Under the pieces are notes generated by a model. The model worked only from the letters and a program-made list of their open reading frames with translations. It ran no database searches and was not told the origin of the DNA. A DNA stretch of 46,217 nucleotides, taken from the IMG/VR virus record IMGVR_UViG_3300045953_000189, positions 1 through 46,217 of that record. One strand, written 5' to 3'. Positions 3,189 to 46,217 of the stretch are shown here, one piece after another (position 1 is the stretch's first letter; every line of letters starts with the position of its first letter). Made by a program: the position numbers and the translations under genes. Source of the DNA: a virus.

Positions 3189-3380
3189 TCACGCGGGCAG
3201 CACCCGGTAGCACTGGCGGTTGGCCAGGGTCGCCCCGATGGTGACCAGGGCGAAGACGTACATGTTCCCGGTCGGGACCAGGACGATCGCTCCCGAGGCT
3301 GTCGTGGCCTCCAAGATCACGCCCGGCAGGAACTTGTATCCCCCCGCCGTGAACGGCTTGATGATCTCCACGCGGGTCAT
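3189..3380 (-). CDS. small hypothetical protein, 63 residues
   Basis: Not recognised. The protein is beta-rich and Val/Gly-rich (EIIKPFTAGGYKFLPGV near the start), with no Cys pair or membrane segment. It overlaps the upstream gene by ATGA. It resembles small single-domain SH3-like or beta-barrel phage proteins in composition only. Confidence 0.6.
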   Translation of the reverse strand: MTRVEIIKPFTAGGYKFLPGVILEATTASGAIVLVPTGNMYVFALVTIGATLANRQCYRVLPA

Positions 3381-3514
3381 CCCTGCTCTCCTCTCTGCTC
3401 GTCCTGGGCGGCGTCCTTGGCCGACTCCCATCCGCGCCCATCCACATAGCCAGCCCGATACGCGGTTATGACGATGAACAAGATCGCCAGCCCGATCAGG
3501 AAGTCTCCGCTCAT
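3377..3514 (-). CDS. small membrane protein with MSG start and DEQR-type tail
   Basis: A 45-residue frame with ATGA overlaps at both ends. Residues 5-18 are hydrophobic (FLIGLAILFIVITA), so it is probably a single-pass membrane peptide. Its start (MSG) and its tail (AAQDEQR) match those of neighbouring unrelated genes, and 19 bases (3393-3411) are identical to the end of the 117-bp repeat unit at 4124-4142. This marks it as part of the mosaic described under findings. Confidence 0.6.
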   Translation of the reverse strand: MSGDFLIGLAILFIVITAYRAGYVDGRGWESAKDAAQDEQRGEQG

Positions 3515-3771
3515 CGCTGCTCGTCCTGGGCGGGACGCAGGGCGGCGCGGGCCACAGCACGCACACCCATAGCCGTCCAGTCCTCACCGTTAGCAATCCA
3601 CTCCAGCGCCTCCCGCAGTCGGTCCCGCTCGGCCTGGGACGCACGCATCTCAGCGGAGACGAAATCGCGCATCCGGTAGCACTGGTCATCACACGCTTGC
3701 CCGTACCGTGTGTCGCACCCGAAGTGGTGCAGTCGGGCGATGTACCACTCCCACCCCCGCTCCCCGCTCAT
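3511..3771 (-). CDS. mosaic small protein A (MSGERG...DEQR)
   Basis: An 86-residue protein of unknown function. It shares its first six residues and its last 40 or so residues (ERDRLREALEWIANGEDWTA onward) with the 98-residue protein encoded at 4120-4416, while the middle is unrelated. The shared C-terminal part comes from a perfect 117-bp direct repeat. The middle has three Cys (residues 19, 27, 31) and an aromatic WEWY start. Both ends overlap neighbours by ATGA. The shared tail looks helical and charged, perhaps for self-association (inference). Confidence 0.75.
   Translation of the reverse strand: MSGERGWEWYIARLHHFGCDTRYGQACDDQCYRMRDFVSAEMRASQAERDRLREALEWIANGEDWTAMGVRAVARAALRPAQDEQR
3517..3633. 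repeat. 117-bp direct repeat, copy 1
   Basis: Identical base for base to 4126-4242 when read by eye. It encodes the common C-terminal segment of two neighbouring small genes. Confidence 0.9.
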
Positions 3772-3977
3772 GGCTGCGCGTCCCCGTCCGGATGCAGCGG
3801 CATCAAGCCCGTCGTGATGGCCACGTAGATGCGTCCGTCTGGATCGAGGTAGAGCGAGAGCTTGGCCTGCTCCTCTGGCGACTTCTTCTCGATCGCCTCG
3901 ATCGGCTGCATCGGGAAGGCGTGCATCAGCAACGCTGTCTGTCCGGTGATCGTGGTCGTCGCGCCCTTCGTGGCCAT
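3768..3977 (-). CDS. small protein ending in DAQP
   Basis: A 69-residue unrecognised protein with a mixed helical centre (residues 24-45, EAIEKKSPEEQAKLSLYL) and a C-terminal strand pair. Its last codons (GDAQP) and the overlapping ATGAGC of the next gene are repeated at two other gene junctions (4413 and 4706). A GGGAGG lies 12 bases before the start, farther than usual. Confidence 0.65.
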   Translation of the reverse strand: MATKGATTTITGQTALLMHAFPMQPIEAIEKKSPEEQAKLSLYLDPDGRIYVAITTGLMPLHPDGDAQP

Positions 3978-3994
3978 TCTGCTTATCTACCTCC

Positions 3995-4123
3995 CTACGG
4001 GTTAAAGGTCCCCTGCCTCGCCCTGCCTCGCCCGGCCTCGCCGGGCCACGCCATGCCCACGCCATGCCCTGCCTCGCCCGGCCTCGCCGGGCCAGGCCAC
4101 GCCTCGGCCGGTGCCCCGCTCAC
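3995..4123 (-). repeat. GC-rich repeat tract with possible 42-residue frame
   Basis: This stretch contains a 28-bp direct repeat (4021-4048 and 4067-4094, identical) made of GCCTCG/GCCGGG blocks. On the minus strand it is also open from a GTG at 4123, which overlaps the upstream stop as GTGA, to a TAG at 3995. The peptide would be repetitive (WPGEAG units). It may be a spacer that happens to stay open, or a real low-complexity peptide. Confidence 0.5.
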
Positions 4124-4416
4124 CTCTGCTCGTCCTGGGCGGGACGCAGGGCGGCGCGGGCCACAGCACGCACACCCATAGCCGTCCAGTCCTCACCGTT
4201 AGCAATCCACTCCAGCGCCTCCCGCAGTCGGTCCCGCTCGGCTATCAGCCGTCGATTTGTCCGCGCCAGATACGTGTTGGCGTGTGACTCGCGGACGCGC
4301 TGTGTCTGGGCATCTTCCAGCGCGGCATAAAGACCGGCCCTTTCCTTGATTGCTTCCGTCCTCGTAGCCTCCAGCAGATCGAGACAGTCGGCATGTATGC
4401 CCCGCTCCCCGCTCAT
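4120..4416 (-). CDS. mosaic small protein B (MSGERG...DEQR)
   Basis: A 98-residue relative of the gene at 3511-3771. The N-terminal six residues and the C-terminal 40 or so are the same, but the middle (residues 7-58) is different and looks like a long helix or coiled coil rich in Glu, Arg and Ala. The ATGA overlap with the upstream gene reuses a 29-base junction sequence (4400-4428, identical to 3755-3783). Function unknown. Confidence 0.75.
   Translation of the reverse strand: MSGERGIHADCLDLLEATRTEAIKERAGLYAALEDAQTQRVRESHANTYLARTNRRLIAERDRLREALEWIANGEDWTAMGVRAVARAALRPAQDEQR
4126..4242. repeat. 117-bp direct repeat, copy 2
   Basis: Perfect partner of 3517-3633 in the same orientation, 609 bp away. 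It lies inside the coding sequence of mosaic protein B. Confidence 0.9.
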
Positions 4417-4709
4417 GGCTGCGCGTCCTTTCCCCCGGCCCGAATGGCGGCGGCGATGTCCACGCCGCATACATGGCAGAACCCGTGCGCGATGATGGCA
4501 TCCCGCTCGCGCTGCTCCTCGCGGGCGCGGGCGAGGGCCTGGGCGACGTACTTCTCCAGTCGCGTCGGGATGCTCTCAGACTCCTCCCCGGTTGGTCGGT
4601 TGATAACGGGCGGGAACGTGATCTTGTTGCCGAGCCTCCGCCCGTAGGTTTCAGCGGCCACCAGGACGTACTCCACGATCTCCTTGGCCTGCGCGTCCGT
4701 CTGGCTCAT
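4413..4709 (-). CDS. mosaic small protein C (MSQTDAQ...DAQP)
   Basis: A 98-residue protein of unknown function. A helical first half is followed by a long charged helix (LEKYVAQALARAREEQRERD) and a CHVC pair with an upstream His, a possible half zinc site. The first 20 bases (4690-4709) are identical to the start of the gene at 4806-4991 (4972-4991), giving both proteins the opening MSQTDAQ. The last codons (KDAQP) repeat the junction seen at two other gene ends. Confidence 0.75.
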   Translation of the reverse strand: MSQTDAQAKEIVEYVLVAAETYGRRLGNKITFPPVINRPTGEESESIPTRLEKYVAQALARAREEQRERDAIIAHGFCHVCGVDIAAAIRAGGKDAQP

Positions 4710-4867
4710 GGCTGCGCGTCCGTCTTGCGTCGGGTTCGCTCAAGGCGCTCCACCGTCTCCATATGGTCGATGAGCACGTCCAGTTGGCGGCGGCATCCGG
4801 CGATCTCAGCCTTGGTGGACGTGGCGTAAAGCGTGATCTTGGTGAAGTAGTCCCAGCAGCACCTCAA
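4706..4867 (-). CDS. probable 3' part of a frameshifted gene (helical, ends KTDAQP)
   Basis: This frame encodes about 53 residues: two Cys, an aromatic WDYF, then a charged helix (RRQLDVLIDHMETVERLERT) and the common KTDAQP ending. Its only candidate start is a TTG at 4867 without a good ribosome site. The frame is one base off from the gene at 4806-4991, and the two overlap by 62 bases. The most natural reading is one helical protein of about 95 residues split by a one-base insertion near 4862-4866, so this is its second half. Confidence 0.5.
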   Translation of the reverse strand: MRCCWDYFTKITLYATSTKAEIAGCRRQLDVLIDHMETVERLERTRRKTDAQP

Positions 4868-4991
4868 TCCGCTTGATCAGGGCCTCGGCTTCGCTGTTGA
4901 AAAGAAGGAGGGCCTCCGCAAGCGGAGGCCCCATCGGGAGGCCGTCTAGTTCGACCGTCTCGACAATCTCCTGCGCGTCCGTCTGGCTCAT
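4806..4991 (-). CDS. mosaic small protein D (MSQTDAQ start), probably frameshifted
   Basis: A 61-residue frame opening with MSQTDAQEIVE, as in mosaic protein C. It overlaps the upstream frame as TGATG. The helical stretch SEAEALIKRIEV is sensible, but after it the frame yields an unconvincing tail, whereas the +1 frame continues helix-like to a DAQP ending at 4706. A one-base indel is therefore suspected. It could also be a real short protein. Confidence 0.5.
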   Translation of the reverse strand: MSQTDAQEIVETVELDGLPMGPPLAEALLLFNSEAEALIKRIEVLLGLLHQDHALRHVHQG

Positions 4992-8396: not shown

Positions 8397-9485
8397 TTAT
8401 ACGGTCCCTGTCGCATTGTCCTCGGTTTTCGCGGGTTCTAGAGGGTGCGCCGCATCGGTCGGTCCAGACACAGCAGAACCCATCGGCATAACCACCAGGC
8501 CGAACGAGGGCAGCCGGTTCACCGCCTCGGCCCGGCGCTTGTCGGACACCCGGAGGTAGATCGCGGTCGTGGCGAGGCTCTCGTGACCGAGGAGATCCTG
8601 GACCTGTCTCAGGTCCGCCCCGCTCTCGAGCAAGTCCGAGGCGAACGTGTGGCGAAGCGCATGGGCCGTGGCCCCCGGCACGTTGGCCGGCGCTCTCCAC
8701 TGGCGGAACCGGGCCTGCACCATGTCGCGCGTCCACGCCTCGCCGTTCGGCTTGGTGATGAGCCGGCTGTCCATCGGACGCTGGCCGAGCTGCTTGAGGT
8801 GGTCCTCGATGACCACCCAGAGCGCGGCGTGCATGTCGACGCTGCGTTCCTTGTCACCCTTGCCGCGCACCCGGATGGAGCCCGTCAGCACGGACCCGTC
8901 CGGCATGGCGTAGGGGGGCCGGATGTCACGCAGGCGGACGCTGATGGCCTCCGTCTCCCGCAGGCCGGCGAAGTAGAGCAGCGCGCGGAGGACCCGATCG
9001 GCGCCCGTTAGCGGCAGCGCCATGATCCGATCACGCTCCTCCGGGGTGAACGCCCTCGGGAGTGCCTTGCGGCGCTGGTAGACGGGGATCCGGGCCACCG
9101 TCTCGGCGCGCCAGTACCGCTTCCAGGTGCCCCACGCAGCGAACTGACGGAGCGCCACGCTCTCGGTGTGCACCGTGTTCGCGGACCGGGCCTCAGCGCG
9201 CTCGGCGAGAAACACCTGGGCGCGCTCGGCGGTGAAGTGCTCGACGTTGGGGATGCGATGCAGCGTGTAGGTGAGCCAGCCGATGAAGCCGGAGAGGTGC
9301 TGATTGTAGGAGCGCAGCGTGTTGGCGGGATACCGCTGCCTGCTGGCCGTCTCGTCCACACCGCGCTGCCGGTCAGAGATGAACTCGATCCGTGCCGTGT
9401 CCAGCCGCATGACATTCGCCCCCCTGGCCAGGAAGGCGTGACTCCGCCCCGTGGCGGGGCGGATCATCGGCCGGGGGGCGAGCAT
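8397..9485 (-). CDS. int: tyrosine recombinase integrase
   Basis: A 362-residue site-specific recombinase of the XerC/XerD-like phage integrase type. An N-terminal SAM-like core-binding domain covers about residues 45-135. The catalytic set is complete: Arg 176 (AGLRETEA), Lys 209 (RGKGDK), His 275 and Arg 278 (HALRH), His 301 (LGHESLATT) and the nucleophile Tyr 310. It should integrate the phage into the host chromosome. The start at 9485 lies two bases after the upstream stop. Later ATGs at 9467 and 9410 are possible, since the first 25 residues look unconserved. Confidence 0.93.
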   Translation of the reverse strand: MLAPRPMIRPATGRSHAFLARGANVMRLDTARIEFISDRQRGVDETASRQRYPANTLRSYNQHLSGFIGWLTYTLHRIPNVEHFTAERAQVFLAERAEARSANTVHTESVALRQFAAWGTWKRYWRAETVARIPVYQRRKALPRAFTPEERDRIMALPLTGADRVLRALLYFAGLRETEAISVRLRDIRPPYAMPDGSVLTGSIRVRGKGDKERSVDMHAALWVVIEDHLKQLGQRPMDSRLITKPNGEAWTRDMVQARFRQWRAPANVPGATAHALRHTFASDLLESGADLRQVQDLLGHESLATTAIYLRVSDKRRAEAVNRLPSFGLVVMPMGSAVSGPTDAAHPLEPAKTEDNATGTV

Positions 9486-9487
9486 GG

Positions 9488-9913
9488 TCAAGCCACCGGC
9501 TCCGGCACGCGCCGCCCGAAGTCCTGCTCGAGCCAGGCCAGGCACGCGGCCGTCCGCTGGGAGAGATGGTCGCGCGAGGCACGATTAGCGAGGACCCAGC
9601 GCAGCACGTCGTCGAGGTCGATCCGCTCCCAGGGCTCCAGGCGCTCGTTCTGGCCGCGCCGGTAGCCGTGGGGATGGCAGGGGCAGACGCGGTAGAGACT
9701 GAACGGGGGCTTCGTCTGCGCGTCGCGCAGCTCGTTGGCGTAGACCTCGGCGGCGCGCGCGCCGTGCAGCGCCCACCGGCCCGGGTGGCTCCATGCCGCC
9801 TGGACCTCGGCGACTTGAGCGGCGAGGAACGCGGCCATGCCGGCCTCGTCCCACTCGCCCGGGTGGTAGGGCGACAGCCCGTTGGCCATCGCCCAGGTGC
9901 GTGGGTCAGGCAT
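9488..9913 (-). CDS. hypothetical protein, 141 residues
   Basis: Not recognised. It is Trp- and Ala-rich with several helices and one CPCHPHGY cluster near residue 80 that could bind a metal. Its ATG overlaps the upstream stop by eight bases. It lies directly before the integrase, a place often held by excision or control genes, but it shows no helix-turn-helix. Confidence 0.65.
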   Translation of the reverse strand: MPDPRTWAMANGLSPYHPGEWDEAGMAAFLAAQVAEVQAAWSHPGRWALHGARAAEVYANELRDAQTKPPFSLYRVCPCHPHGYRRGQNERLEPWERIDLDDVLRWVLANRASRDHLSQRTAACLAWLEQDFGRRVPEPVA

Positions 9914-32221: not shown

Positions 32222-34437
32222 GGCCGGCGCACCGTCACCGTCAGCGCCCGGTCGCGCGCGGCCCCGTTGGCGATCGCGGCGAGGCCGGTCATCAGGATGG
32301 TGATCGGCCCCGTCGTCTGCGGGCTGTAGAGCACGTCGTGCTTGACGATGCCGCGCCGGGCGAAGGTGTCGCTCCCACCCTTCGTCGCCGCCGTCGCGTG
32401 GAGGAACGACTGCGGCATGATGCCGTCAAGGAGCTCGCCGGTGAGCGTGCCCACGCGGATGCGGCTCGTCACGTCACGCGGCGACGAGGCGGCCGCCGAG
32501 CTGATGTACTGACGGCCGGTGATGTGTAGCGTGTCCCCGATCGACGTCAGCGTCACCGTCACGGACGCGGTCAGGGTTTCCTCGTCCAGCGTGAGCACAA
32601 CGGAGTCGGAGTTGAAGAACGCCGCGCGCTGGATCACGAGGTCGGTCCGTGCGAGTTCAATCGGGTCGCCGATGGGCTCGTCGATCGTCTCGCGGCCGAC
32701 TTGCAGCAGCGTCATGACGACCTTGCCCTCCGCCCCGAACAGTGGCCGGATGTCGCGCACCTGGAACCGTGATGTGACGAGGCCGCGCATCCCCGACTGG
32801 ACGTCCGGGATGCGTTTATGCGTGACCGCCACCGTCTCGCCGACATCGACGACGTGGTTACCGTACCGGACGACGAGTTGCAGGCGCGGCGGCGGCTCGC
32901 TGAACCGCTGGAACGTCTCGAAGGCCCAACGGTCAAGCTCCGTCTGGACGTCAAGGTCGGTATGGAGCCCCTTGGAATCCATCTTCAGCGGCGGCTTACG
33001 GCCGTACTTCTCGATGGACGCCAGCGCCGAGTACCGCTGCCGGAGGCCGAAGGAGTTGGGCGCCTCGTCCTCGTTCCAGTCGTACTGCACCTCGACCTGG
33101 TTGATGATCCGGTCCTCACCGCCCTGCCAGGCCCAGCCGATGATCTGGTCCTCGTCCAACGTCACGACCGGCGTGCTCGTCCGCCCCTCGCTGACCTTGG
33201 CTGAGTAGGCGCCTGTCTGCGTCACGAATGGGAAGAGGTTCAACGGTTTGAAGATTTCCCGCTCGATGAACTCCTTGCCGTCCTCCGGCGCATTGAGCCG
33301 GAAGTGCATCTCCGTGTCAGGGAACCGTCCGTCACGCAGCGCCTCGATCCCCGCGATGTCGACGAACGGTGCCGGGGCGACCACGGACCACGAACGGTTG
33401 AACACGTCGTACCGGCCAGCGATCCCGGCGCGTCGGTATCCCAGGCCTACGGCGGAGTCCGCGTCAATCGGCTCGACGGTATAGAGTCTGGTGCTCGACT
33501 CCACGGACGCCACCGTGAGAACGCGATCATCAGCGGTGAAGGGAGCGACGACGAGGATCTCACCGGAACGGATGAACGACAGAAACTCCGTACCGATCCC
33601 GACCACGACGTTCGGCCGCTTCATCTGAACGGTCCCGGTGGACACAGCCGCCGTTCCGGTTGACAGGAGCATCCGGAGCGCGATGTCGAGCGGGTGCCCC
33701 TGGATCTCGATGATGGCCTCCTGCGTGGCCGGAAACACGACCTGCCGCAGGAACCGCTGGAAGTCAGCCGCGCTGATCGTATACGTCACCGCGTCGTTCG
33801 AGAGGCCGACGCCGGTGATCTCCATGCGTGCGAACGCCAGAAAGCTCGACTCCGGGAGATCCCGGTAGCCGGCCAGGAGCTGGATACGCTGGCCCGCTCG
33901 AAGCTGCTCGCCGTTGTGGATCACTGTGTTGAGCCCGTGCCCCTGCGGCGCGGTGCCATCGACCGCCCACTCGAGATCGACGAAGCGGTTCGTCGTGTCG
34001 TCGCGGCGACGGTACCGGATACGCTCCGGCCCGATCTGGAGCGTGCCCACGGCCGGGTATCCGGCGATGCTCGTCTGTCCCTGGATGTACGCTGGCCGGA
34101 GCGCCAGCGAGCCGGACAGCTCGTGCGCGAGCGCGACCCTAGGATCGGACAGGTACCGGAGGATCTCGCCATCGCTGTCCTGCAACGGCAGCGTGAAGCT
34201 CCCGATCGTCGACCGGCCCTCCTCGGGCTCCACCGTCTGCGTATTGCCGCTCGGCCGCCCGAGAACCTCCAGGTAACCGCGCGTGGCCCCCTGGATCGCG
34301 CCGGACGCGAAGCCGCGCGTGAACGGCCACTCGGTCGGCAGGCCGGCGCGCGTGACGTGGTACGGCTGCGCGATGTAGACCGGCCGGTGCGCCAGGCGCG
34401 CCCGCGCGACCGCGTATTCAGGAGATTCGACCTTCAA
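32218..34437 (-). CDS. large tail-tip (hub-like) protein
   Basis: A 739-residue beta-rich protein with no signal or membrane segment. Its place after the tape measure and two tail proteins is that of a central tail-tip or hub protein. The TTG at 34437 overlaps the upstream stop and has GAGGAG six bases before it, a better start than a GTG at 34473. Short segments (RSTIGSFTLPLQDSDGEI, GRYDVFNRSW) suggest several beta domains. No lytic or peptidase motif is visible. Confidence 0.7.
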   Translation of the reverse strand: MKVESPEYAVARARLAHRPVYIAQPYHVTRAGLPTEWPFTRGFASGAIQGATRGYLEVLGRPSGNTQTVEPEEGRSTIGSFTLPLQDSDGEILRYLSDPRVALAHELSGSLALRPAYIQGQTSIAGYPAVGTLQIGPERIRYRRRDDTTNRFVDLEWAVDGTAPQGHGLNTVIHNGEQLRAGQRIQLLAGYRDLPESSFLAFARMEITGVGLSNDAVTYTISAADFQRFLRQVVFPATQEAIIEIQGHPLDIALRMLLSTGTAAVSTGTVQMKRPNVVVGIGTEFLSFIRSGEILVVAPFTADDRVLTVASVESSTRLYTVEPIDADSAVGLGYRRAGIAGRYDVFNRSWSVVAPAPFVDIAGIEALRDGRFPDTEMHFRLNAPEDGKEFIEREIFKPLNLFPFVTQTGAYSAKVSEGRTSTPVVTLDEDQIIGWAWQGGEDRIINQVEVQYDWNEDEAPNSFGLRQRYSALASIEKYGRKPPLKMDSKGLHTDLDVQTELDRWAFETFQRFSEPPPRLQLVVRYGNHVVDVGETVAVTHKRIPDVQSGMRGLVTSRFQVRDIRPLFGAEGKVVMTLLQVGRETIDEPIGDPIELARTDLVIQRAAFFNSDSVVLTLDEETLTASVTVTLTSIGDTLHITGRQYISSAAASSPRDVTSRIRVGTLTGELLDGIMPQSFLHATAATKGGSDTFARRGIVKHDVLYSPQTTGPITILMTGLAAIANGAARDRALTVTVRRP

Positions 34438-35990
34438 GGAATCTCCTCGTACCGGATCGACGCCCGCACCCACCGGCTCCCGACCGTCGCGCTCGTGACC
34501 GACTTGAAGCTCATCACGTCACCGGAGGCGAACTCTACCTCGTCAGTGACGTTCTCAGCGTCGCGGCCCTCCGCATTCCCGTGGGTGACAGAAAGGGCCG
34601 AGTCATCTGTCTCGTTGCTCCGGATGGTCACGGTCACCGTCTGGCCGGCCGTCGGCGTCGTGTCCAGGAGCGTGTGCAGTCGACTCGCCACGCCTTTGTA
34701 CGGCACCCGGAACGAGGTCTGAGTCTCGGTCAGGCTGTTGCCGCCGGGTCCGAGATAGTGCGTAGTCGCTTGGGCTTGGGCGGAGCCGACCCCCACCATA
34801 ATGTTGCAGCGGCGACCTTGCCACGCGCCCGGGATGTAGTCCTGAACCGACGCGCCCATGACGAGCGTGGCCCCGTCGAACTGCACGGTGGTGTCGAGGA
34901 TCAGCTCGCACCGCATCTCGACGGTCGTCGCAGCGGCGTCGATCGTCCGCGTGACCTGGAGCCACTCGAAGTTACCGCTGCCGGTGTGCGACGACGACGT
35001 CGTCGAACCGATCCCGTCGTGAATCGTCAGGCGCGCGGCGCTCGCGACGCTCGCCCGCACCCAGCATCCAAACGTAACAACCTTGCCACGCCAGCGCGTC
35101 GCCGGGCCGTGGAAGCCCGCGATGTCCTGCCCGAGGTAGCAGTTTGTCCCGGACCGCGTGAGGTTGGCCGAGGCGGACCCGACCTTGACATTCGATGAGT
35201 TCTTCGCGCTCGTCGCTCCAGAGCCCGTCAGCACCCATCGGGTCGGCTGCGTAACGCCGAACCCGGCCGGCTGGCCCCACAGCTCGAAGTCGCCGTTGAA
35301 CGCCCATGACGTCGCGCCGGCGTTACCGACCGGCAAGTCAAACTGCCACTGCGCGAGCACGCGCGAGGCCTCGTCGAGTCGAGCGAAGTCGAGAATCCCA
35401 GAGACGAACTCCGGGATGCCAGCGCCAAGAACCAGGGTCGCGCCGTCGAACTGCACGGTGGTGTTGCCGGTATCAACGGCGAGCCGAATCTCGACCTGTG
35501 TCGCCGCGTTGTCGATGGTCCGCGTGACGGTGATCCACTCCCACAGGCCCGTGCCGGTGTGGTACTCCGACGCCGAGGAACCGACGCCGTCGTGAATATG
35601 GAGCCGCGCCCGGCTCCCGGCCGTCGCCCGAACCCATGCGCCGAACGTAACCTGACGGTTCTGCCACCAGGCCGCCGGCCCGAAGGACGTCACCGCGTTC
35701 TGCGCGAGGTAGCAGTCGTTGCCGACGCGCGTCAGAGCTGCGGCGAACGTCCCGATCTTGAAGTTCGTACCGTCGCGGGCGACCGTCGCCCCGGAGCCCG
35801 TCAGCGTCCAGTTCGTCGGGGCGACCGCCGTCCCGGCCAGCCACGTCTCCAGGTTGCCGTTCCGGGCGAAGCTGACGCCGCCGGGCGTGCCGATCGCCTT
35901 CGTGAACTTCCACGCCCCGGTGATGACGTCATCGGACGTCTTGTCAGGGACGTGCGCGACGTCGAGAGCGGTCACGCCATCAGTAGCCAT
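34434..35990 (-). CDS. tail protein with duplicated carbohydrate-binding-like domain
   Basis: A 518-residue protein. Two copies of a 145-residue domain (about 44-189 and 231-375) share many residues: the NG(N/D)(L/F)E opening, WTLTGSGAT, the ITVTRTID/LQVTRTID strand and the closing TTVQFDGATLV. The pattern resembles CBM4/9-like jelly rolls that bind glycans. A third beta-rich part completes the C-terminus. The ATG at 35990 is one base after the upstream stop with a GGGAG site. A receptor- or glycan-binding fibre role is likely. Confidence 0.75.
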   Translation of the reverse strand: MATDGVTALDVAHVPDKTSDDVITGAWKFTKAIGTPGGVSFARNGNLETWLAGTAVAPTNWTLTGSGATVARDGTNFKIGTFAAALTRVGNDCYLAQNAVTSFGPAAWWQNRQVTFGAWVRATAGSRARLHIHDGVGSSASEYHTGTGLWEWITVTRTIDNAATQVEIRLAVDTGNTTVQFDGATLVLGAGIPEFVSGILDFARLDEASRVLAQWQFDLPVGNAGATSWAFNGDFELWGQPAGFGVTQPTRWVLTGSGATSAKNSSNVKVGSASANLTRSGTNCYLGQDIAGFHGPATRWRGKVVTFGCWVRASVASAARLTIHDGIGSTTSSSHTGSGNFEWLQVTRTIDAAATTVEMRCELILDTTVQFDGATLVMGASVQDYIPGAWQGRRCNIMVGVGSAQAQATTHYLGPGGNSLTETQTSFRVPYKGVASRLHTLLDTTPTAGQTVTVTIRSNETDDSALSVTHGNAEGRDAENVTDEVEFASGDVMSFKSVTSATVGSRWVRASIRYEEIP

Positions 35991-35991
35991 G

Positions 35992-37221
35992 TCATCTCCC
36001 GTCCCGGATGCGGAGGGTGTAGTAGTAGTGCTCCGCGCCCGGCTGCGCTCGGATCGGGCGGAACACGGCGTCGATGAACTCACCCCGCGGGTAGTACGTC
36101 CGCATCGGGTGGGCGTAACGCTCCAGCACGGACGGCAGGCCGTACGCGACGCTGTAGAGCGACAGCGCGCCGAAGGCGCCCGAGAACCGCCCGGCCGTCT
36201 GCGCCAGGTCAGTCCCGAGCATGACCGCCGTCGGGCTCCCGGCCATGACCTGCTCGGCGCCGGACGGTGTGCCGCTCTTGTCGCCGTACTTCAGGCCATC
36301 GCCGTACTTTCGCGTACTCCCGTACCTGTGGTAGTAGTTGACGCCCGCCAGCAGGACACCATCGAGCTTCGCGCTCAGGCTCGTCAGGTCGGCACCCCAC
36401 TGCACCATCAGGACATGCTCGGTATCGGCCGCCCAGGTGACGAGCTGCTCGAGCGCCGTGGCTCCGCTGTTCGCGCCGTAGTGAATGACGTGCAGGAAGT
36501 TATCGGCGCGCTTCTTAACCAGGAGCCGGTTCCGACCGATGTCCCCACCCCACGCGGCGCAGTCGATCAGGATGTGCTCGCCGCCGTCGTTACCAGCGAA
36601 CCCAGCACGGAACGCGAGGACCAGGGTCCCTCCGGTCGGAGAGAAGAAGAAGTTCCCCGACCCGCCCGGGAGCGCCGAGATCAGCGAGGCGCGCAGCGGG
36701 CCGGTCGTCGGCATCGTGACGCCACTGCCGTGGGTCCCTTCCTGGTACGCGAGCGCCTCGACCGAGCTGAACACGTTGCCTCGGTTGTTGTCGTAGGCGT
36801 CGCCAGCCTCGAAGCCCCAGTACGCGCGCAGCGTCCGGTCGATGTAGACCTCGGCCTGCTCGCCGCGCCCGCCCCATTCGCGGAGCATGCGCCGCAGGCG
36901 GTCGAACATCTCCGGGACCGTCGGTTGCATCGTGAGGATGCAGACCTCCTCGTCGCGCTCGTGCATCACCTCGCGCTTCCCAGACGCCGTCACGTTCGCC
37001 CCGACGATCGGCGTATCCTCGTACCCGATCGACGTGAGAGGGTCCGGCATATCGACGGTCCTGCCGTTGTAAACCACCCGCAGATACCGAGAGGTCGCGA
37101 TGAGGTGCTCTGTCCCGTCGCCCCATGACGCATTCTTGGGCGTGATCCCTGCAGGCGGTGGCGTCGTCGGCGCGTCATCGAAGAACAGCGCGCCGGTGCC
37201 GAAGATCCCCGCAGGCGCCAT
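35992..37221 (-). CDS. distal-tail-like protein with LamG-like domain
   Basis: A 409-residue protein directly after the tape measure, overlapping it as TGATG. The N-terminal 130 residues have the beta-rich style of distal tail proteins (RYLRVVYNGRTVD...). Residues 150-375 look like a concanavalin/LamG jelly roll with repeated YDNNRGNV, LVLAFRAGF and HYGANSG strands. Likely sits at the end of the tail tube and joins the tip. Confidence 0.65.
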   Translation of the reverse strand: MAPAGIFGTGALFFDDAPTTPPPAGITPKNASWGDGTEHLIATSRYLRVVYNGRTVDMPDPLTSIGYEDTPIVGANVTASGKREVMHERDEEVCILTMQPTVPEMFDRLRRMLREWGGRGEQAEVYIDRTLRAYWGFEAGDAYDNNRGNVFSSVEALAYQEGTHGSGVTMPTTGPLRASLISALPGGSGNFFFSPTGGTLVLAFRAGFAGNDGGEHILIDCAAWGGDIGRNRLLVKKRADNFLHVIHYGANSGATALEQLVTWAADTEHVLMVQWGADLTSLSAKLDGVLLAGVNYYHRYGSTRKYGDGLKYGDKSGTPSGAEQVMAGSPTAVMLGTDLAQTAGRFSGAFGALSLYSVAYGLPSVLERYAHPMRTYYPRGEFIDAVFRPIRAQPGAEHYYYTLRIRDGR

Positions 37222-41430: not shown

Positions 41431-42456
41431 TCAATCGGCGAGAATCGCCCAGTCACTATTCGCGCCGCCGGCGATGGTCGGCAGCAAGTCGATCTGGAAG
41501 ACCGGCACGTCCTCGACGACGTCGAGCTGTTTGGTGATGACCTCGAGCGCCGACGCCGCCCCATCGCCTGCGTACTGGAACTTGAGCCTGTTCGTATGGA
41601 CCGTGTTGAGCTGGAACGTGCAGTCGAGCAGCGTGCCGTCGCGCATCGCTGCCCACCAGCCGGAGTTCGCGTCGCGGTCAACCTCAGCGACGATCGAGAG
41701 CAGCGGCCGGCGGTCGACGGTCTTGAAGCCTTCGATACCGGTCGCCGCGTTGATGTACCGGCGCGGGACGAACCGGTTGCCCTGAGAAAACCGGAAGCTC
41801 CTGACCTTGGCCGCGTAATTCGAGCCACCGATCTGAAACAACGCACCAGCCAGGAGCGGGTACGTCGGCGATCCGACCAGCGTCCCGGCGACGAAGGCGA
41901 TGTCCTTGTCTTCCTCCCACGCCCCGGCGAAGCTGAAGTCGAAGAAGACCGGCCCGGCCGCCTCGCCCGACACCACGAACGTCCCGACGCACCCGACGAA
42001 CTGGCGACTCCAGGCGTTGCCGCCGGGCACCGGGTAGACGCAGTAAATCGTCTGCGTCAGGTCAGTGTCGCTCGGCGTATACTTGATGCTGCTGCTGCCG
42101 GCCCCTGGGTTCGTGAACGTCGCCGTCAGACCACATCCGAGCAGAGCCCGGTGCGACTCCGGCGCCACGAGCGGCGTGTCGTCATACTCGGCAGCGGCCG
42201 CGCTGCCGCGCCACGGCATCCGAAAGTCGACCCGGCCAAGGCGCGGCCCCTTCAACGACGGCGCCCGCCCCTTCGACCCCATCGTGATCAGGTTCTCGAT
42301 CTCGTTGGGATCGGCAACGGCCCGAATCGTCCGGTAATCGACCGGCTGGACGTCGCCTGCGACGTAGGTGTCCGCGAACACGTCCGTGCCGGCCGTCGCT
42401 TCCTGCTTCATCGCCACGACGGTCCGGCTCGCCACCGGCATGCTGATCTCGGCCAT
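41431..42456 (-). CDS. major tail tube protein
   Basis: A 341-residue beta-rich protein in the tube position, opening VASRTVVAMKQEATAGTDVF with further segments typical of phage tube proteins (IENLITMGSKGRAPSLKGPRLGRV, and a closing VFQIDLLPTIAGG). It would form stacked hexamers along the tape measure. The C-terminal half may carry an outward Ig-like domain, judging by length. No close overlap with the neighbour upstream (15-base gap). Confidence 0.8.
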   Translation of the reverse strand: MAEISMPVASRTVVAMKQEATAGTDVFADTYVAGDVQPVDYRTIRAVADPNEIENLITMGSKGRAPSLKGPRLGRVDFRMPWRGSAAAAEYDDTPLVAPESHRALLGCGLTATFTNPGAGSSSIKYTPSDTDLTQTIYCVYPVPGGNAWSRQFVGCVGTFVVSGEAAGPVFFDFSFAGAWEEDKDIAFVAGTLVGSPTYPLLAGALFQIGGSNYAAKVRSFRFSQGNRFVPRRYINAATGIEGFKTVDRRPLLSIVAEVDRDANSGWWAAMRDGTLLDCTFQLNTVHTNRLKFQYAGDGAASALEVITKQLDVVEDVPVFQIDLLPTIAGGANSDWAILAD

Positions 42457-42471
42457 CGCTCTTCTCCTTGG

Positions 42472-42966
42472 CTAGGCGCCCGGGGCCACGGTGATCGCGC
42501 GCTGGAGCGTCGCGGTGACGATCAACTCGAACTCAGCAGTCTGCGCGACGGCAGCGGTAGCCCCAGCGGGCTGAAAGAACTCCGGCGACGCCAGCGCCAG
42601 ACGATGACAGACACCGCCCAGGGCATGATTGGCGTAGAGCGTGCGGGTGACGTCCTCGCTGAGCCGGATCGCCCACTCGAGCGAGGTGAAGTCGGCCGTC
42701 GCGTCCGCGTAGCCTACGACAAGGAACTCGTACGGCACGAGCTGCGACACCATGTCGCCAACGGACGCCGCCGGCTCCGGCTCGGCCTGGTTCTGGATCA
42801 GAACACAGACGTGCGGAAACCTCGAGACCTGCGCCAGCGCACGATAGGTCCGCTCCACGGTCGGCACGTTGCGATACGGCGCGCCGAAGAACCGTTCCCC
42901 GGTCATCCCGGCAATCAGCGCCGAGATCCGCTGGCCCGCGAGGACGCCGAGCGCCTCCTCAGCCAC
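42472..42966 (-). CDS. tail-completion/terminator-like protein
   Basis: A 164-residue protein starting at a GTG with GGGAGG before it and eight-base overlap with the upstream stop. Mixed alpha/beta, with VCVLIQNQAEPEPAAS and a long strand set, as in tail terminators that cap the tube. A longer frame from 43101 is a shadow. Role inferred from position. Confidence 0.65.
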   Translation of the reverse strand: MAEEALGVLAGQRISALIAGMTGERFFGAPYRNVPTVERTYRALAQVSRFPHVCVLIQNQAEPEPAASVGDMVSQLVPYEFLVVGYADATADFTSLEWAIRLSEDVTRTLYANHALGGVCHRLALASPEFFQPAGATAAVAQTAEFELIVTATLQRAITVAPGA

Positions 42967-43414
42967 CGAGGCCCTCCCGGATACGGCGCTCGATCTGCGC
43001 CTGCGCCGCCGGGATGCCGGCCCGGACACCGCGCGTGAACCAGAACGTCGCGCGCTGCCCCGGGTGCTTGACATGGGGCCGGAACAGGGTTTGACCGCCA
43101 ACCGTGAACTTCATGACGCGGCGGCCGTGCTCGCGGAGACGACCGCTGATCGGATGCGCCCGCGTGCCCCCCTCGAGCCAGTGCGCGTCGAACCGCGGCG
43201 TACCGATCGTCGCCTGGAGCCCGGCTGGACCGACGCTGACCTTCTCCCGCAGGCCTGATCCCTTGCGCGAACCACCGACCGCCAGGCGGAATTGCTGATC
43301 GGCGCGCTGACGGATGATCGCCACACCTTCTCGGAAACCGATCTCGGCCGACTTGCGGAGGCGGCCGACGTCGAGCTTGACATCCCGGCGGACGTGCGCC
43401 GACGGGGCGATCAT
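42959..43414 (-). CDS. HK97 gp10-like neck/minor tail protein
   Basis: A 151-residue protein with a helical start and a beta-rich centre (VSVGPAGLQATIGTPRFDAHWLEGGTR). The WLEGGTRAHPI segment is the family mark of HK97 gp10-like proteins. It helps join head to tail. The ATGA overlap supports the start. Confidence 0.75.
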   Translation of the reverse strand: MIAPSAHVRRDVKLDVGRLRKSAEIGFREGVAIIRQRADQQFRLAVGGSRKGSGLREKVSVGPAGLQATIGTPRFDAHWLEGGTRAHPISGRLREHGRRVMKFTVGGQTLFRPHVKHPGQRATFWFTRGVRAGIPAAQAQIERRIREGLGG

Positions 43415-44070
43415 CCGACCGTCCAGCGCCGGTAGCGCGCGTCGAGGATCGCTCGAGACTCGGACGGCATCCAGCGGTCGAACAGCGTCACACCGCCACC
43501 AGGCGTGTTGACCGTGATGACATCCGAGAGGCCCTTCTGCTGGGCGTCGAACATCTTGCGGACCATCAGCAGCGCGGCGTCCTTCAGGTCCTCGGGGACT
43601 GCCGTCAGGGCGCCGTAATAGCTGAGGGCCACCCCGCCGATGCGGCTCGTCGCCCAGCCAGACCGCCTGAAGAGCATGTCGGGAACGAACAGCCCACGCT
43701 CCGGCTTCCCCGGCTGGAACGCATCGTCGGCCAGATAGCCGACGACGACGTCGAGGAGGTCCGGATCACCATCCGCGTCCTTCCGCCAGACCGTCTGCGC
43801 TGTCCCATCGAACGTCACCGTGACCGCCTGAGTCACGTCGATGGGTCCGGCGACGACCTGGAGCAGCTGGGAGTCCTTCGCGCTCAGCCGGACCGTGGCC
43901 GGCGCGTACGGACCGCTGGTCCCGCGCTTCAGGGGGCGGTCACAGTAGGCCTCGATGAGCTCCGTCGCCCTGTTGATGACCTCCTCGAGAATGTCGTCCT
44001 GCGTGGCAGCCGCGCCGGTATAGGCCCGCGCTTCCTGCAGCGACACGAGCGCGTTCAGCGCGAGCGGCAT
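43411..44070 (-). CDS. HK97 gp6-like head-tail connector
   Basis: A 219-residue protein opening SLQEARAYTGAAATQDDILEEVINRATELIEAYCDR, the typical helical start of the gp6 adaptor family, with a beta-rich middle and a C-terminal arm. It forms a ring below the portal. Followed by overlapping gp10-like gene. Confidence 0.85.
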   Translation of the reverse strand: MPLALNALVSLQEARAYTGAAATQDDILEEVINRATELIEAYCDRPLKRGTSGPYAPATVRLSAKDSQLLQVVAGPIDVTQAVTVTFDGTAQTVWRKDADGDPDLLDVVVGYLADDAFQPGKPERGLFVPDMLFRRSGWATSRIGGVALSYYGALTAVPEDLKDAALLMVRKMFDAQQKGLSDVITVNTPGGGVTLFDRWMPSESRAILDARYRRWTVG

Positions 44071-44074
44071 CGGC

Positions 44075-44485
44075 CTACTTCACCATCCCGACGATCTTGA
44101 TCGACGTCGCGCCGGCATAGGTCCCCGTCGTCGTGTACTTCACGCGGAACATCCCGCCGAGGAAGCCGTTGACGGCCGTATCGTCGGCCGTCGTCCCGTC
44201 GGCCGGGGTGGCCGGCGAGGTGACCGCGATGACCGTGAGATTGACCAGGCGTCGCTTCGCCGCGGTGGTGACGGCGAAGCAGAAGATGTCCATCCAGCTC
44301 GCGCCGTGATCGAACGACGTCTGCACCCAGAACTTCCCAGTCGTGCCGCCGGAGCCATACGCGAACGTGCAGTCGAGCGTCAGCTCGCGGACCTGATCGA
44401 CCATGAACGCGAGCGGGTCGCTGACGACCGCCGAGACGGCACCTGCGATAGGGACGTTCAGCAGCTCCTTCGACTCTGCCGGCAT
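44075..44485 (-). CDS. structural protein of unknown role, 136 residues
   Basis: A beta-sandwich-like protein (VRELTLDCTFAYGSGG, KFWVQTSFDHGASWM) sitting between capsid-linked gene and connector. A decoration or head-completion role is possible. Not recognised. A 71-base gap upstream carries a hairpin. Confidence 0.6.
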   Translation of the reverse strand: MPAESKELLNVPIAGAVSAVVSDPLAFMVDQVRELTLDCTFAYGSGGTTGKFWVQTSFDHGASWMDIFCFAVTTAAKRRLVNLTVIAVTSPATPADGTTADDTAVNGFLGGMFRVKYTTTGTYAGATSIKIVGMVK

Positions 44486-44506
44486 CGCGGCGTCCTTTCA
44501 TACGTC

Positions 44507-44538
44507 CGCCGGGGAGTCCTAACAGGCACCCCCCGGCG
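44507..44538. terminator. hairpin between two head genes
   Basis: CGCCGGGG (44507-44514) pairs perfectly with CCCCGGCG (44531-44538) around a 16-base loop. On the minus strand no T-run follows, so it may slow or partially end transcription, or protect the message end. Confidence 0.5.
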
Positions 44539-44556
44539 TCCGTGGTGACTACGCGA

Positions 44557-45024
44557 TTACGAGGTCGGCACCGCCGTCGGAGCCGGGCGATACCGGCCAC
44601 CGCTGATGATGGCGACGGCCGAGATGAACTGTGCCGTGCCGGACGCGAGGGCGAACGTCACCCACGTGTGATCGTCGGGCAGATCCGCCGCATCGACATG
44701 GATGACGACGACGCGGTGGTCGTGACCCGTTGCGGAGAGCGTGAGGATCCCGTCCGACTCCGCGGTCTCGGCACCGTACGTGTCGGCGGCCGCAGCCTTG
44801 AAGTCGGCAGCACTCAGGCGATACGTGAAGGGCAGCGCGGTCGTCTTCGCACCCGCCGTTGCCCCGCTAAAGAGCGACAGCGCGCCCGGCACCGTGAGCA
44901 CACCGAACGAGAAGACGATGTCGGCGTGCGCGCCGACGAGCTGGAACGTCTCGCTGTCGGCCCCGGCCGCCAGGTCGATCGGCTCGTACATCGGGATGAT
45001 TCCGACCTCTTCGACAAGTCGCAT
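44557..45024 (-). CDS. head decoration-like protein, 155 residues
   Basis: Directly after the capsid gene in reading order. Beta-rich and Ala/Gly-rich (AGADSETFQLVGAHADIVFSF), with no Cys or membrane segment. The position and size fit a capsid decoration protein, but the family is not recognised. Confidence 0.55.
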   Translation of the reverse strand: MRLVEEVGIIPMYEPIDLAAGADSETFQLVGAHADIVFSFGVLTVPGALSLFSGATAGAKTTALPFTYRLSAADFKAAAADTYGAETAESDGILTLSATGHDHRVVVIHVDAADLPDDHTWVTFALASGTAQFISAVAIISGGRYRPAPTAVPTS

Positions 45025-45045
45025 GGTCGTCTCTTCCTCCCTGGC

Positions 45046-46217
45046 TCAGTCGCGGTCGGCGAGGCCGATGAAGGGGCTCATATCGCTGGCGCCCTTGTAC
45101 GGCGTCAGCTTGATCCGCCACGTGGGCTGGCCGTTGATCCGGAAGACCCAGCGGAAGGTGGACTCGTTGTTGAGGAAGCGGACGTGCATCGAGGTGTCGT
45201 AGCGCAGGCCCTCGGCGGCCTTGGTGATCGTCACGTACTCGTTCAGGTTGACGAGCATGATGTCGCCCGCCTTGCCGAGCTCGTTGGACTGCTCCAGCTC
45301 GATGACCGGTCTGCCGAGCAGCAGGCCCGCAGGGGCATCCTTGAGGTTCCCCGACGGCGGCAGCCAGACCGGCTGGTTACCGATCGACATCTGCGGCAGC
45401 TGGGTCATGACGTCCGGATGGATGAGCCACGCGGCACCGGCCTTCAGGCGGCTGGGCATCCGCGCGTACATCTTCAGGATGTTGCCGACGACGACGGTGT
45501 CGGCCACCTGCGACCCCTCCTTGGCGACCTCGACGTAGGCGGGGTGACCGAAGAATCCGAGCGGCTTGCCGACACCGTTGCCGCGGAAGATCGCGTCGTC
45601 GACCTGGAAGGCCACCTCCGACTCGAACGACGAGCCGAGCAGCCCCTCGAGCGCGCTGGCGTCACGGACCAGACGATCCGTGGCGTAGGCCAGGCCCATG
45701 ATCTCCTCGAGCTTCAGCTCGCCCTTGCCGATCTTGGGCTTCTTGGCCGTGACCGTGTCCGCCTCGGCCACCCAGAAGACCTGCACGCCGCCCCAGCGCG
45801 AGCCGGTCGCGCGGCTGGACTCGTCCACGTACGGGTACTCCAGCGAATCGAAGTCCCCGCCGACCTGGATGTTCCGGGTCCGGGGCAGCAGGACCGCCTG
45901 CTCGCGCGCCCGATCCAGCATGGCGGACGACCAGTCCTTGCGGACCAGGAAGCCGCCGTCGCTGGGCACCCCGACCGACGTCCCGGAGACCGCCTGGTAG
46001 GCGGTCAGCTTGTTCATGAGCTCGTCGGCCCGGCTGGCCCCGAACCGCGAGCGCCAAAGCGAATCCGACGCGCACACGATGGCCTGCAGGAACTCCCCCA
46101 TGCCGCTGAACTCGTGCGTCCCGGGCAGCGGGCTGCCAGCGGGGGCCAGGCGCATGATCTGCGCCTTGTCGTGCTCGGCCAGGCGGGCCTCGGCCTGGAT
46201 CTCGGTCTCCAGCGCCT
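45046..46217 (-). CDS. major capsid protein, HK97 fold (partial, cut by edge)
   Basis: The frame is open to the right edge; its visible part has about 390 residues. The N-terminal end is acidic and helical, like the scaffold-like delta domain of HK97 gp5, and the protease cut site probably lies near residues 40-70 of the visible part. Later segments are typical: MGLAYATDRLVRD, FESEVAFQVDDAIFRGNG, GKPLGFF. Its true start is outside the window; the ATG at 46155 is only an internal codon. Portal and protease genes should lie just beyond the edge. Confidence 0.9.
   Translation of the reverse strand, partial: ALETEIQAEARLAEHDKAQIMRLAPAGSPLPGTHEFSGMGEFLQAIVCASDSLWRSRFGASRADELMNKLTAYQAVSGTSVGVPSDGGFLVRKDWSSAMLDRAREQAVLLPRTRNIQVGGDFDSLEYPYVDESSRATGSRWGGVQVFWVAEADTVTAKKPKIGKGELKLEEIMGLAYATDRLVRDASALEGLLGSSFESEVAFQVDDAIFRGNGVGKPLGFFGHPAYVEVAKEGSQVADTVVVGNILKMYARMPSRLKAGAAWLIHPDVMTQLPQMSIGNQPVWLPPSGNLKDAPAGLLLGRPVIELEQSNELGKAGDIMLVNLNEYVTITKAAEGLRYDTSMHVRFLNNESTFRWVFRINGQPTWRIKLTPYKGASDMSPFIGLADRD

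Follow-up and report, generated by a model that had tools for sequence, protein, structure and literature searches.

Phage genomes are rich in small early genes without known function. In mosaic phage genomes, conserved boundary sequences, short stretches of identical DNA at the borders of unrelated genes, have been described together with homologous recombination (PMC3029335), and for phage Red and Rad52-like recombinases, joining of modules has been documented where the homology is short or diverged (PMC2327257, PMC3945230). The Ea22 proteins of lambdoid phages are small early coiled-coil proteins with mosaic, exchangeable parts and a common +GE tripeptide end (PMC10834534, PMC7093339). Short repeats are also found in cluster K mycobacteriophages, where 13-bp start-associated sequences (SAS, GGGATAGGAGCCC) have a putative role in translation initiation (PMC3203893).

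The DNA analysed here (the window), 46,217 bases long with a G+C content of 68.5%, is a virus record of IMG/VR and the incomplete contig of an uncultured tailed phage. The locus under study is a run of small overlapping genes, all on the minus strand, flanked by a RuvC-like gene (5669-5175) and a DnaB-like helicase gene (3068-1725); these are early genes of the phage. They are read in the order MSQTDAQ ORF (4991-4806), gene D, gene C, an array of GGCNN pentamers, gene B, gene A and a membrane-like gene (Table 1), with ATGA overlaps between D and C, between B and A, and between A and the membrane-like gene. Three genes of the locus had been described as ending in DAQP. All three endings can be read, but the third belongs to a second frame (4867-4706) that would have to start at TTG and that overlaps the MSQTDAQ ORF, out of frame, over the latter's 3' part; a frameshift may have split a single gene into these two frames. 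The region 4706-4991 is possibly a frameshifted copy with the ends of gene D, i.e. a second start-and-end pair. Within the MSQTDAQ frame, a terminator-like element on the minus strand (4909-4932) combines a perfect G+C-rich hairpin of 10 bp with a T-rich stretch downstream. The GGCNN array (4011-4111, minus strand) between genes C and B consists of two runs of 9 pentamers with a strong predicted hairpin (z -2.6), and it was not seen in the other loci fetched. Far from the locus, the minus-strand gene 34434-36083 contains a 230-nt direct repeat of 74% identity (34852-35078 and 35422-35651), a duplicated domain.

Table 1. Features of the small-gene locus, in window coordinates.
Feature	Coordinates	Strand	Description
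Gene C	4120..4416	-	MSGERG start, head IHADCLDLLEATRTEAI..., tail RLREALEWIANGEDWTAMGVRAVARAALRPAQDEQR; ATGA overlap with the upstream stop
Gene A	3511..3771	-	Start and tail as gene C, different head (WEWYIARLHHFGCDTRYGQACDDQCYRMRDFVSAEMRAS); ATGA overlap with both neighbours
Gene D	4413..4709	-	MSQTDAQ...DAQP; ends inside the junction preceding gene C; third-position G+C fits coding
Gene B	3768..3977	-	MATKGA...DAQP; ends inside the junction preceding gene A; third-position G+C fits coding
MSQTDAQ...DAQP region, two frames (4991-4806 and 4867-4706)	4706..4991	-	Frameshifted single gene or two overlapping genes
Small membrane-like gene	3377..3514	-	MSGDFL...AQDEQRGEQG; starts at the ATGA of the gene A stop; 17-19 nt copy of the tail end
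MSGAPAE ORF	3995..4123	-	GTG start, 42 aa; in the GGCNN pentamer array, directly 3' of gene C; may be non-coding
Tail-coding repeat, copy 1	4126..4242	-	117 nt exact; tail profile match E 7e-13
Tail-coding repeat, copy 2	3517..3633	-	117 nt exact, 609 nt from copy 1; tail profile match E 7e-13
Start junction, copy 1	4400..4428	-	29 nt, GGACGCGCAGCCATGAGCGGGGAGCGGGG
Start junction, copy 2	3755..3783	-	29 nt, 645 nt from copy 1
Partial junction copy	4704..4721	-	18 nt; between the DAQP end of 4867-4706 and the gene D start
Middle of gene C	4243..4399	-	157 nt; similarity to the gene A middle not above shuffles
Middle of gene A	3634..3754	-	121 nt; similarity to the gene C middle not above shuffles

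The initial annotation had singled out genes C and A as two MSGERG genes with an identical 117-nt 3' end and unrelated middles, and this holds exactly. The 117-nt end is the longest exact repeat of the window and grows to 127 nt with 2 mismatches (3507-3633/4116-4242; E 5e-59 in a window-versus-self BLAST search). The start junction is exact over 29 nt and is the joint second-longest repeat of the window (E 7e-8), and its reported partial recurrence over 18 nt is equally exact. Between these borders, the local DNA score of the two middles was 12.0 against a shuffle mean of 11.8, with 46% of shuffles equal or better. The remaining resemblances needed correction in detail: the repeat at the two MSQTDAQ starts is present but spans 22 nt (4688-4709 and 4970-4991), not 20, and the membrane-like gene, which was said to share an AQDEQR tail, has 17-19 nt in common with the other two genes but reads ...AAQDEQRGEQG, with AQDEQR only near its end.

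The two tail copies differ at 0 of 117 positions, with 39 codons lacking a single synonymous change, which bounds their divergence at no more than about 2.6% (95% bound). Such identity beside middles without residual similarity rules out a single duplication followed by drift, the simple alternative named in the initial annotation, and at least one of the two middles was, judging from the sequences, brought in by recombination. A version in which one gene was duplicated in tandem and its middle drifted while the ends were held by selection, the start through translational coupling and the tail through protein function, is improbable as well. It would fit two copies in the same orientation, 609 nt apart and with the same start junction, and a tail that is a conserved protein motif elsewhere, but it is strongly contradicted by the silent sites, because protein-level selection does not hold synonymous positions beside unalignable middles of unequal length.

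The short repeats span ATGA overlaps, and start-associated sequences of 13 bp are known from cluster K mycobacteriophages (PMC3203893), so the junctions could be purely regulatory, serving as start-associated or translational-coupling signals without a role in recombination. We hold this to be quite unlikely, since it leaves unexplained both the 117-nt identical coding end and the 22-nt MSQTDAQ start, which lies inside the coding part.

The initial annotation had also proposed a cassette-shuffling site driven by recombination at gene junctions. Conserved borders around unrelated interiors are indeed present, and other viruses carry the same tail under other heads, once with 127 nt identical within one genome; a dedicated site, in contrast, is unsupported. 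In a dedicated diversification system, the borders would be recognised DNA sites for active exchange of heads by the phage or its host, comparable to phase-variable shufflons. The core GGACGMGCAG has 11 copies in the window (1.1 expected, maximum of 5 in 100 shuffles), 8 of which lie at gene ends or starts in 3395-4980. When the tail pair or the junction pair is recombined in silico, 609 or 645 nt are lost and the genes stay intact, so that the locus as it stands could pass into states with a single gene. Both observations suit such a system. Against it, the shared copies are direct rather than inverted, no invertase was found in the vicinity of the locus (the single integrase is at 8397-9545), and neither a reverse transcriptase nor silent cassettes were seen. 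No annealing recombinase, reverse transcriptase or invertase was recognised among the scanned proteins of this incomplete contig, and the host could supply a recombinase. A dedicated system thus seems hardly probable to us.

A C-terminal tail module is encoded by the 117-nt end and is composed of a coiled helix, the motif RLREALExIA, a variable loop, ARAAL and a short charged end. Since IMG/VR yielded no relatives of gene C itself, the tail core RLREALExIA was searched there as a degenerate DNA pattern; the estimate of breadth comes from this single motif-based scan. It returned 72 stretches with 75 ORFs, in 70 of which the ORF ends within 66 aa of the motif. AxxA[LI], which lies outside the search pattern, follows the motif in 83% of the ORFs versus 6% in shuffled tails, and the parts preceding the motif are diverse, with 67 heads falling into 63 unrelated clusters. 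The same pattern run against bacterial genomes gave 101 stretches, and the 80 loci examined encode mostly ordinary proteins; the tail architecture is found in 59 of the 75 viral ORFs versus 3 of the 80 bacterial loci (Fisher P 6e-24). Those three, in Paenibacillus brevis (L112), Sphingorhabdus (L149) and Sulfobacillus harzensis (L173), are possibly prophage, and the head of the first resembles the LexA-type heads of two viral loci (L032 and L051).

A tail profile of 56 sequences, the window tail among them, matches both window copies at E 7e-13 each and nothing else in the window; C-terminal position and ARAAL after the loop are likewise found in both. In the alignment (A3), the invariance of the motif is due to the search pattern, and the A..AL positions lie outside that pattern but in rows selected for having them. 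Among 61 tail-bearing proteins, any one family of Pfam, PHROGs or NCBIfam matches 3 at most, and the matches that exist concern heads (e.g. LexA-type; a few are LexA or winged-helix) or generic coiled coils. In an AlphaFold model of the tail (mean pLDDT 83), a turn connects a long helix (residues 2-36) to a short one (residues 42-53), so that the tail is predicted to form a helical hairpin. Searches of solved structures and with Foldseek gave nothing significant for the tail, and a description of it was not found in open-access papers. A tblastn search of INPHARED with 39-44 aa of tail gave no match even at E 10, which we attribute to the shortness and low complexity of the queries rather than to absence of the tail. 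Our best guess, given the modelled helical hairpin and the coiled heads, is that the tail would serve as an oligomerisation or docking module.

Tails of distant phages resemble one another mostly at the protein level, and part of this resemblance could have arisen by convergence of short coiled helices. Their DNA similarity over the 30-nt motif core was disregarded as evidence, since the search pattern itself favours such similarity. Conservation of the tail across viruses as a protein motif indicates that the shared border is due in part to selection on the protein. Recombination at gene junctions is therefore not its sole driver, as had been assumed.

In several viruses, the tail DNA stays alike where the heads differ. 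The clearest case is IMGVR_UViG_3300032677_000056, in which an identical stretch of 127 nt (58 before the motif and 69 into the tail) stands under two different heads: the contig opens with this stretch, which recurs near the other end. This length is probably the word length of the assembler, and the true repeat may consequently be longer. In L028, L046, L072, L087 and L092, five places on four contigs, the tail DNA under differing heads has a similarity of 78-84% that sets in about 10-16 nt ahead of the motif. Apart from the 127-nt pair, no alignment runs in register upstream of these tails, and the heads show short out-of-register matches as well; at two of the places (L028 and L046) the ORF extends past the tail. 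At least six loci (L023, L040, L045, L059, L063 and L093) have tail-bearing genes next to one another. Within such loci, adjacent tails usually resemble each other no more than tails of different phages do, so the recent copy in the window is not the rule, and local tail duplication was not supported as a general one. A whole tail-bearing gene is present twice in L030 (3647-4039 and 5376-5768), with an identical protein, 1.7 kb apart.

These contigs also bear on an assembly artefact, in which alternative strain versions of one gene would have been strung in tandem. The locus comes from a single metagenome contig, and assemblers do stumble at the tail: a contig from another sample begins exactly at the 127-nt tail repeat, and two contigs of one sample (L048 and L070) meet in 127 identical nt that include the tail, which is what assembly does at a repeat. 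The exact repeat of the window, however, is with 117 nt shorter than the 127-nt word suggested by those assemblies, and its copies differ in both flanks (gene D and the pentamer array for one, gene B and the MSGDFL gene for the other) within a coherent overlapping order. There is thus little likelihood of such an artefact here.

Relatives of the locus itself were sought in IMG/VR with genes C and A, the DnaB-like and RuvC-like genes, the DRLREALEWIA pattern and the junction, and no usable one was found; of 62 pattern matches from an initial genome scan with A1, none was confirmed as a relative. A capsid query retrieved the same virus from a second sample (L004, IMGVR_UViG_3300045975_000157), identical at 100% over 41671-46217. 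That contig covers a further 3.6 kb past the right end of the window and stops short of the locus. Other capsid relatives did not detectably encode the DnaB-like helicase or the tail. No relative with a different middle between the same borders was found in these scans, and exchange at the locus was not observed directly; different segments at the same tail border are seen in the other phages described above.

Head-tail shuffling is a well-supported history for genes A and C as far as their sequences can tell, and the two would be recombinant chimeras. More specifically, each has the shared junction and the shared tail module around a different head, and we consider it fairly probable that the heads were joined by recombination at the borders. 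Most likely, different heads would have been attached to the tail through homology-directed recombination at short identical borders, with the start junction on one side and the tail on the other, and duplication of the unit would have followed or accompanied their joining. We infer that the joins were made by homologous or annealing-type recombination, and head swapping may continue. More tentatively, the tail may be a portable C-terminal adaptor of early phage proteins, which would place unrelated effector or DNA-binding heads under a common oligomerisation or docking hairpin through recombination at the tail-coding DNA; that DNA would then be both a part of the protein and the homology for in-frame head swaps.

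Compared with the systems described, a diversity-generating retroelement or a shufflon does not fit, given direct repeats and scanned proteins without a recognised reverse transcriptase or invertase. SAS are alike in being short repeats at the starts of small genes within one phage genome, but they have another sequence and lack a shared coding end. Ea22 shares with genes A and C the character of small early phage proteins with coiled coils and exchangeable parts. It keeps its N-terminal part, however, and varies the C-terminal domain (PMC10834534), whereas genes A and C have the C-terminal tail in common and differ in the head; the Ead_Ea22 model (PF13935) matches neither gene A nor gene C, and 1 of the 61 tail-bearing proteins. 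The process at the locus belongs with boundary-sequence mosaicism, with which it has in common identical borders, here of 29 and 117 nt, around dissimilar middles. It differs in that one border lies inside the genes, as a coding tail, in that both versions stand side by side in one genome, and in that a Red or Rad52-like recombinase was not recognised among the scanned proteins. Mosaicism at short homology is already known in phages; the part that seems new is the tail as a module shared by unrelated phage proteins, which automated annotation misses because no Pfam, PHROGs or NCBIfam model covers it. The tail ties together many otherwise unrelated small early phage proteins and offers a handle for finding a common partner, and it provides a tangible example of a module whose own coding sequence may act as the border for recombination.
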